Shown here piece after piece: positions 1,127-55,711 of a stretch of DNA of 64,000 bases (positions are counted from its first letter, which is position 1; the number at the start of each line of letters is the position of its first letter). This DNA comes from Halobellus inordinatus (lineage in GTDB: Archaea > Halobacteriota > Halobacteria > Halobacteriales > Haloferacaceae), in assembly GCF_024464655.1 (NCBI RefSeq), contig NZ_JANHAV010000002.1:310001-374000 (forward strand). Direction: 5' to 3'. A program made the position numbers and the translations under genes. Below the pieces are notes generated by a model that did not search any database, had not been told where the DNA came from, and saw only the letters and a program-made list of their open reading frames with translations.

Positions 1127-1293
1127 CTATAGTAGCGTTTGCAAGTCTTCACGCACTGAATCGCACGCAGTCGTGCGATTGGCTGTGTAATCATAGGGAT
1201 TATCGTAACTGTTCGGAGATTCTCGCCGTACCGTCCGGCGAGAAATCTACGAGGACTTACGATAGTCCCTATCAGTTGCAAACGCTACTATAG
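1127..1293. repeat. B-family palindromic element, copy B1, interrupted by C1
   Basis: The ends are an exact 18-bp inverted repeat (CTATAGTAGCGTTTGCAA at 1127-1144, its complement at 1276-1293). Inside is a second stem, ATCGCACG/CGTGCGAT, around 1160-1179. Removing the C element and one TCA leaves 86 bp, the same length as copy B2 at 44823-44908. It lies between serS and the next gene. Confidence 0.9.
1194..1271. mobile_element. C-family mini-element, copy C1, inserted in B1
   Basis: This is a 78-bp element with terminal inverted repeats TAGGGATTATCGTAA and TTACGATAGTCCCTA and an inner perfect stem TCTCGCCG/CGGCGAGA. It is flanked on both sides by TCA (1191-1193 and 1272-1274). Copy B2 carries the same locus with a single TCA and no insert, so B2 is an empty-site comparison supporting insertion with a 3-bp duplication. 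It has no coding capacity. Confidence 0.88.
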
Positions 1294-32273: not shown

Positions 32274-32360
32274 ACCCGATGTATGCGACCCAGTCACTTG
32301 GCCTCGCCGACGAAGGGAACCGCGGCCGGCGCGGGAGAAACGGCTTCGGTGAGCCTCTCA

Positions 32361-32438
32361 TAGGGATTATCGCAACTGTTCAGAGATTCTCGTCGTACCG
32401 TCCGGCGAGACATCTATGCAGACTTACGATACTCCCTA
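32361..32438. mobile_element. C-family mini-element, copy C2
   Basis: 78 bp, ends TAGGGATTATCGCAA and TTACGATACTCCCTA; inner stem TCTCGTCG/CGGCGAGA with one G-T type mismatch. Flanked by TCA at 32358-32360 and 32439-32441. The right TCA is the stop codon (TGA) of uvrA on the minus strand, so the element starts immediately after the uvrA coding sequence. Confidence 0.88.
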
Positions 32439-35387
<2,949 letters not shown>

Positions 35388-35462
35388 CTACGACCCGATA
35401 TGGAGAGCGGAGAGGAAAGTTCGTCGGTTCCGGCGGTCACGTCGGCGTCGAAATGGCTCTCA

Positions 35463-35540
35463 TAGGGATTCTCGTAACTATTCGGAGATTCTCGCCGTAC
35501 CGTCCGGCGAGAAATCTATGACGACTTACGATAATCCCTA
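35463..35540. mobile_element. C-family mini-element, copy C3
   Basis: 78 bp, ends TAGGGATTCTCGTAA and TTACGATAATCCCTA (one mismatch), inner stem TCTCGCCG/CGGCGAGA. Flanked by TCA at 35460-35462 and 35541-35543. Unlike C2 and C4 it does not touch a stop codon; it lies in the uvrA upstream region, 73 bases from the uvrA start. Confidence 0.87.
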
Positions 35541-35650
35541 TCAGAACAGTGTCCGCCGAAGCGGATGTAACAGCGACCGACGGCCAGTCAAAAGCAGCAG
35601 TCAGCGTACAGCAGCGGTGATACGACCCGACGGTTGCCCCGTGGTTGTCG

Positions 35651-36146: not shown

Positions 36147-36248
36147 TAGGGGCTATCGCACCTGTTCGGAGAGTCTCGCCGTACCGTCCGGCGAGAAATC
36201 TATGACGACTTACGATAATCCCTATATGGAGACGTACGATACTCCCGA
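36147..36248. mobile_element. C-family mini-element, copy C4, with duplicated right end
   Basis: The typical 78-bp element spans 36147-36224; a second, diverged 24-bp copy of its right end follows at 36225-36248 (19 of 24 bases identical). TCA flanks the whole: 36144-36146 and 36249-36251, the latter being the TGA stop codon of the PUA-protein gene on the minus strand. Confidence 0.83.
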
Positions 36249-44822: not shown

Positions 44823-44908
44823 CTATAGTAGCGTTTGCATGTCTTCACTCACCTAACCGCACGCAGTCGTGCGATTATCTGTGTGATCAGTTGCAAACGC
44901 TACTATAG
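44823..44908. repeat. B-family palindromic element, copy B2 (uninterrupted)
   Basis: 86 bp with perfect ends CTATAGTAGCGTTTGCA (44823-44839) and TGCAAACGCTACTATAG (44892-44908), and inner stem CGCACG/CGTGCG. It lies between tgtA and htpX starts (divergent promoters). It is the empty-site counterpart of B1: the GATCAGTTG at 44885-44893 is where C1 sits in B1. Confidence 0.9.
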
Positions 44909-54718: not shown

Positions 54719-55711
54719 TCAGAGTGTCGGCATCGGCAGCGTCGGTCCTGTGCCGTTCTCCGACCCCGTCGACGGCGGTGTCGGCGCGTTGCCCGTCTTC
54801 TGTCCGCTCACGAGGAAGTCGGCCAGGTTGCCGATGAACGCTTCGTTGTCGGCGGTGTACGCGTCGGTCGGTGCGAGAAAGTCGGTGTCCCCGACCATTG
54901 CCACGTCACCGGACTGCACCGCGACGGCGTACGTGTCGGCGCGGCGGGTCGTCGAGAGCTTCGTCTGCTCGATCGCCGTCAGCGCGCGCTCTCCGCTGTC
55001 AGTCGAGACGGCGACCGACCCGCGGAACACGACGCGATCGACGTCCTGCGAGAGCGATCCGCTTCCGGCGGTCGCGTAGATGCTCTTGAAGTTGTGCTGG
55101 TACTCGTGCATATTGAACAGGTACCCCGAGTGTCCGGCGACGCCGAACGTCGAACTCAGGCCGGGACCGCCGCTCGATGGTTGCTGGGGCCCGACTCCGA
55201 GTCCGAGGATGCTGAGTATGGACCCGGACGAAGACGCGGGGTCCGAGAGCAACAGGACGCGGCCGCCCGCGTCGTTGAACGCGCGGACGCCGGCGAGCTG
55301 TTCGGGTGTGTACGCCTGCGTCGGGTTCGCGACCAGCAGTGCGTCCGCGCTCCGGAGCGATTCGTTCCACGCGGAGCCGCGGGCCTGCTCTTGAGTCACG
55401 AACCGGACTTCGTGGCCGTTCTCGACGAGCGTGTTCACGAGCGTCGAGAGCTTTTCGTCGGAGAACTCGTTTCCGTGTGCCTTGTCGACGAGAACCGTCT
55501 TTCCGGTGGCGTCGCTGTCCATCGTGATCTCACCGGTCTCGTCGGCGGCGGCCACGCGGGCCGCGTCGAGGTCGGCCTGCTGTTGCGCGAGGTTCGACAC
55601 TTCCGGGGTGTCGCCGCCCGAGAAGATCGGAAGCACCGCTGCGCCACCGACAATGAGCGCGACGACGACGACGAACGCGACTGCGGGTCCGGTGAGGTCA
55701 CGCGCTTCCAT
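54719..55711 (-). CDS. DUF4350 membrane-anchored protein, 330 aa
   Basis: One N-terminal membrane helix (about 8-30), then an extracytoplasmic region with a GATase-like alpha/beta domain (DUF4350): [34 protein letters not shown] near residue 72 and [37 protein letters not shown] near 125. It ends in a low-complexity Pro/Thr/Ser/Gly tail. Its start overlaps the S49 peptidase gene by 14 bases, so they are co-translated; the pair may form a membrane complex. Confidence 0.83.

Follow-up and report, generated by a model that had tools for sequence, protein, structure and literature searches.

The question raised by this locus is how a 78-bp palindrome came to lie inside a second short repeat that is also present, without the palindrome, elsewhere in the same DNA. 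The window (the whole 64-kb stretch analysed) belongs to a Halobellus genome of 3.4 Mb in 23 contigs. It holds two copies of the outer repeat, designated element B, and the first of these (B1) is split by the palindrome, designated element C, while the second (B2) is empty; the features are listed in Table 1. The first-pass annotation had described a nested insertion with an empty-site comparison, and this was confirmed by direct reading of the sequence. B1 including its C spans 161 bp (1130-1290), B proper as seen in B2 is 80 bp, and the difference of 81 bp is, as had been stated, the 78-bp C plus one TCA, with a single TCA in B2. The one adjustment concerned the outer limits of B. When CTATAG is counted at both ends, the copies measure 167 bp (1127-1293) and 86 bp (44823-44908); this outer CTATAG consists of the target C, the TA duplication and the first TAG of B, which is an element of 80 bp with a TA duplication. 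In the 64-kb window there were 8 matches to the C end, compared with 0.21 expected.

Table 1. Positions of the B and C elements and the associated gene in the window.
Feature	Position	Strand	Details
B1, B element (80 bp) split by C	1130..1290		TA duplications 1128-1129 and 1291-1292; target CTAG
Left TCA of C target duplication	1191..1193		Read directly
C nested in B1	1194..1271	+	78-bp palindrome; ends TAGGGATTATCGTAA / TTACGATAGTCCCTA; sequence read directly
Right TCA of C target duplication	1272..1274		Read directly
Second C	32361..32438	+	TCA duplications 32358-32360 and 32439-32441; the right one is the uvrA stop codon (TGA, minus strand)
uvrA-like gene, stop codon is the C target duplication	32439..35387	-	UvrA_inter 3.6e-36; UvrA_DNA-bind 2.7e-32
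Third C, noncoding site	35463..35540	+	TCA duplications 35460-35462 and 35541-35543
Fourth C, decayed	36147..36224	+	Without matching duplication
B2, empty B, one TCA at the equivalent site	44826..44905		TA duplications 44824-44825 and 44906-44907

The history of the nesting was examined copy by copy. B1 without its C differs at 1 of 80 bases from three empty B copies (L066, L071, L074), and the nested C is one base off a C copy found elsewhere (L009). C lies at the identical TCA in five B copies, three in one orientation and two in the other. A shared position might suggest that C and B form one composite element, spread as a unit after a single nesting event, and this is highly improbable given that C is present in both orientations and that the nested C copies are nearest to C copies elsewhere, whereas the closest relatives of the B1 part are empty B copies. 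Because of these same two features the five cases look independent, and judged from their sequences they are best read as separate insertions. The reverse nesting was also found. In the window's genome a B element interrupts C at CTA/TGAGG (L154, contig C19, approximately 54,764-54,846), and in a congener (G006) B is inserted at the identical C position (L120, 3030-3192). Since each family is found inside the other, both were active over overlapping periods. The earlier statement that B is older than C is therefore valid for B1 and does not extend to the families, as their relative age holds copy by copy. The presence of C at the same place in all relatives had been named as an argument against transposition, and this is not what was seen: the nine congeners displayed at the B1 site have neither B nor C there, and eleven congeners have uvrA with the same stop triplet and no C, in DNA that is too diverged beyond the stop to show both flanks.

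The genome contains approximately 90 copies of C and at least 35 of B. The C-end pattern has 178 matches in the genome, compared with 0 for the reversed pattern, and the copies have a mean divergence of 6.3% from their consensus. Identical flanking triplets were observed in 73 of 87 C copies (TCA 31, TGA 28, TAA 5, TTA 3, others 6), which supports the earlier proposal that C is a unit inserting with a 3-bp duplication. The base before the duplication is C in 68 of the 87 and the base after it is G in 64 of the 87. The matched triplets and these flanking bases define the target as CTNAG, of which TNA is duplicated; TCA, which had been given as the flanking repeat, makes up 31 of the 73 exact duplications and is one case of this wider rule. 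TCA or TGA is the triplet in most copies, as might be the case if the repeats were a fixed REP-like structure with the TNA triplet as part of the element. The chance of this is close to negligible, as the triplet varies (TCA, TGA, TAA, TTA, TCT and others) yet matches as a direct, not an inverted, repeat, and as empty sites exist. C is a family of very small mobile hairpins that lack a transposase. It has the characteristics of a MITE: a length of 78 bp, approximately 90 copies, 15-bp inverted ends, no transposase gene, 3-bp repeats, and empty sites in the form of an empty B copy and of congeners without C. As DNA, the palindrome in B1 has a folding energy of -24.7 kcal/mol (z -6.7).

Element B is a MITE unrelated to C and follows the TA-in-CTAG rule of IS630. 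TA was observed at both sides in 28 of 36 B copies, 19 of which have C before and G after, and thus B shows the TA duplication and CTAG preference of an IS630-type MITE. Like B, IS630 / Tc1-mariner MITEs duplicate TA, mostly in CTAG. A preference of IS630 for CTAG is given in the title of Tenzen and Ohtsubo (1991), cited in PMC2170065. In the genus, three IS630-type transposase loci end in TATAGTAG as B does (L233 of G002, 1427-2486; L227 and L237 of G010, near 1429). They share only approximately 8 bp with the B end, beyond which the sequences differ, and a scan of the transposase loci for B ends gave no full-length element carrying the complete end. These three loci are noted as a possible parent type for B.

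The most striking property of C is its location, as an unusually large share of its copies coincides precisely with the stop codons of ordinary genes. Genes were called with our own simple codon-model caller, which placed 66 genes in the window (86% coding), and each C copy was classified by joining its two flanks and typing the target triplet against the called genes. By this classification the 87 copies comprised 39 at a stop codon, 46 in noncoding DNA and 2 'coding'. The control consisted of the window and 300 kb of evenly chosen stretches; an earlier control taken from the surroundings of B and C elements was biased towards noncoding DNA and was dropped. With flanking bases matched and coding sites excluded, 30 of 59 TSA (TCA/TGA) duplications were at a stop codon compared with 11.9 expected, a share reached in 0 of 50,000 simulations. 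Among CTSAG copies, 22 of 37 were at a stop codon versus 31 of 131 control sites (p = 9e-5), and the excess stayed when the comparison was narrowed to WCTSAGW (13 of 26 versus 8 of 35, p = 0.03). B served as an internal control, being a noncoding MITE of the same genome, and was at stop codons in 1 of 35 copies. All ten host genes scanned matched Pfam families, including UvrA, a chemotaxis transducer, SAM synthetase, an AMP-binding ligase and dihydroorotate dehydrogenase, and are therefore real genes. Insertion at a stop rebuilds the stop codon, and the first codon of C, TAG, is a second in-frame stop. No description of MITEs at stop codons was found among the open-access papers searched.

Elements with C-type ends, in the same location, were found in other haloarchaea. 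With at most two mismatches, a level at which single matches will include chance ones, TNATAGGGATTATCGTAA was identified in 108 of the 392 genomes of the order, spread over 41 of its 95 genera. Apart from the window's genome, the richest had 93 matches, and reversed controls were near-empty. In other genera the elements are 79-109 bp long and have the common ends, the TNA duplication and unrelated interiors. In a first set of copies from other genomes 29 of 39 were at stop codons, and in a second set from 14 genomes a stop codon was the target in 31 of 54, whereas the CTSAG control sites of those loci gave 4 of 85 (p = 2.5e-12); the two sets overlap in a few loci, and the copies sampled were the best-scoring or first-listed ones. 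Two longer C variants (approximately 99 bp) are located 1.5 kb apart in another genome (G033; L121, 3017-3115 and 4522-4621), and both begin at the base right after the stop codon of a gene.

An excess at stop codons could arise at the moment of insertion or afterwards, and the age of the copies bears on this. The figures that follow are nearest-relative distances from one genome with few young copies. Copies whose nearest relative differs by 0-1 mismatches were divided into 3 at stops and 13 in noncoding DNA, near the control share, whereas those with a nearest relative at 3 or more mismatches were divided into 29 and 19 (p = 0.008 versus the 0-1 class). Copies at stop codons were also more diverged than the others (7.1% versus 5.6%, p = 0.003). 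The youngest copies are thus without the excess and the older copies have it, which points to survival after insertion and not to targeting. The argument is weakened by the 15 of 42 copies located in divergent intergenic regions, since copies there are not rare and noncoding copies are therefore not obviously harmful. The contrary reading, in which the transposase or a partner aims at gene ends through a wider target resembling haloarchaeal gene ends or through coupling to the termination of transcription or translation, draws on several genomes in which nearly all sampled copies are at stops (8 of 8 in G015, 5 of 5 in G153). It also draws on the extension of the target towards WCTSAGW, which last codons ending in A/T-C fit. 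We consider aiming unlikely, as the stop excess persists when sites are matched at WCTSAGW (13 of 26 versus 8 of 35), as the excess is absent among the youngest copies (3 of 16), and as five insertions entered one site of a noncoding MITE. The reading that C is a MITE which inserts at CTNAG, is moved in trans, and accumulates at stop codons by the survival of its older copies is the probable one.

Under this reading by survival, a trans-acting transposase would recognise the 15-bp ends of C, insert the element at CTNAG and duplicate TNA, and selection would remove insertions inside genes. An insertion at a stop codon TGA would leave the stop restored, with the TAG of C as a second in-frame stop. 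Copies at stop codons would be the longest-lived, owing to the rebuilt stop and the TAG that comes after it in frame; being harmless, they would outlive copies elsewhere and accumulate in genome after genome. B would offer C a noncoding TCAG site, and each family would have entered the other. Such a history would illustrate how a mobile element persists where genes are densely packed: it enters a stop codon and rebuilds it, and TAG backs it up. In addition, C provides a countable and testable case of insertion preference versus later survival across many related genomes. A different kind of retention, in which copies at stop codons are kept as useful hairpins (a transcription terminator, a stabiliser of the mRNA 3' end or a processing site), would agree with the strong fold, the position directly after the stop codon of housekeeping genes, the enrichment of older copies at stops, and the same position of elements with unrelated interiors in other genera. 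This is rather doubtful in view of the weak covariation (five compensatory cells, compared with a shuffle mean of 0.9 and a maximum of 5) and of the uvrA copy, which is absent in all eleven congeners examined and is therefore not conserved there. The window C copy has no T run or terminator-like site, and an Rfam search with C gave no match. It may be suggested, quite tentatively, that haloarchaea across the order carry mobile hairpins which duplicate the stop codon and whose settled copies acquire a role at mRNA 3' ends, in which case the MITE family would keep supplying elements for gene ends. Gene pairs that differ naturally in having or lacking the hairpin at the same stop codon are material for the study of archaeal 3'-end function.

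The first-pass annotation had called C non-autonomous, and indeed no copy encodes a transposase. A carrier of the C ends was sought among transposase loci (PF01609, PF13358, PF13586, PF13359), by a search for long pairs of C ends and in plasmid collections, and none was found; viral contigs contained only single C ends in unrelated DNA, and no carrier. At the cut-off that gave 178 ends in the genome, the 87 paired C elements cover 168, and therefore few ends are left to bound a longer carrier. C is therefore only presumed to be mobilised in trans and to belong to the IS5 family, no transposase with its ends having been found. The TNA rule points to a transposase akin to the IS1031 group of that family. 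One-ended matches in two genomes were rejected as carriers, as they are a C split by B (G006) and the longer C variants (G033). A C-like end (TAGGGAGTAGCGTAAG) at position 1504 of L342 (G269) and L344 (G340) was likewise rejected as a carrier end, no partner end being found. This single end, present in the two genomes, adjoins an IS5-like transposase gene, as seen in L342.

Several known systems resemble C in part. Tourist MITEs of the PIF/Harbinger group are, like C, short, with inverted ends and a 3-bp duplication. The PIF target is CWCTTAGWG, which is close to the WCTSAGW of C. These MITEs are eukaryotic, the middle base of the C target is mainly C or G, and the comparison is one of features. 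For example, mPing, a Tourist MITE of this group, has the 3-bp target duplication TTA (PMC2836001). The IS1031 group of the IS5 family prefers 5'-TNA-3' and makes exclusively a 3-bp direct repeat, and ISLrh of this group itself entered TGA (PMC12016507). C has the 3-bp direct repeat of TNA that characterises the group and shares the target and repeat length with ISLrh, but the ISLrh ends (GAACCTGTCTAG..) do not resemble the C end TAGGGATTATCGTAA. The available text of PMC3119063 describes Haloquadratum MITEs, PATEs and small mobile repeats that are transposase-free, 80-110 bp long and present in many copies, and that strongly tend to land in other mobile elements. They are like C in being haloarchaeal, transposase-free and multi-copy and in landing element in element. 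According to the same text, SMR-A insert into IS605-type palindromes (also PATE palindromes) without duplicating the target, and PATEs have neither terminal inverted repeats nor a target duplication. By those descriptions C is not an SMR-A, as it makes a 3-bp duplication, and not a PATE, as it has inverted ends and a target duplication. The location of C at stop codons is not reported for the Haloquadratum elements in the available part of that paper. In Coxiella, QMITE1 and QMITE2 overlap the 3' ends of functional genes, a preference that the authors remark on without settling its cause (PMC5896051). These are like C in being located at gene 3' ends, but they overlap by 1-50 bp without an exact regenerated stop, are bacterial and are unrelated to C in sequence.

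The third C of the window was not seen at the orthologous place in the nine congeners displayed. Another C-like end (TCGGGAGTATCGTAC), at 36234-36248, is at most 10 bp beyond the decayed fourth C, which is without a matching duplication. Positions 1710-1796 represent a third family of short repeats, whose ends resemble ATACTGTCGGACAG / CTGTCGGGCAGTAT; several copies were found in the window's genome, and approximately ten are present in a congener (G007) at 91-95% identity.
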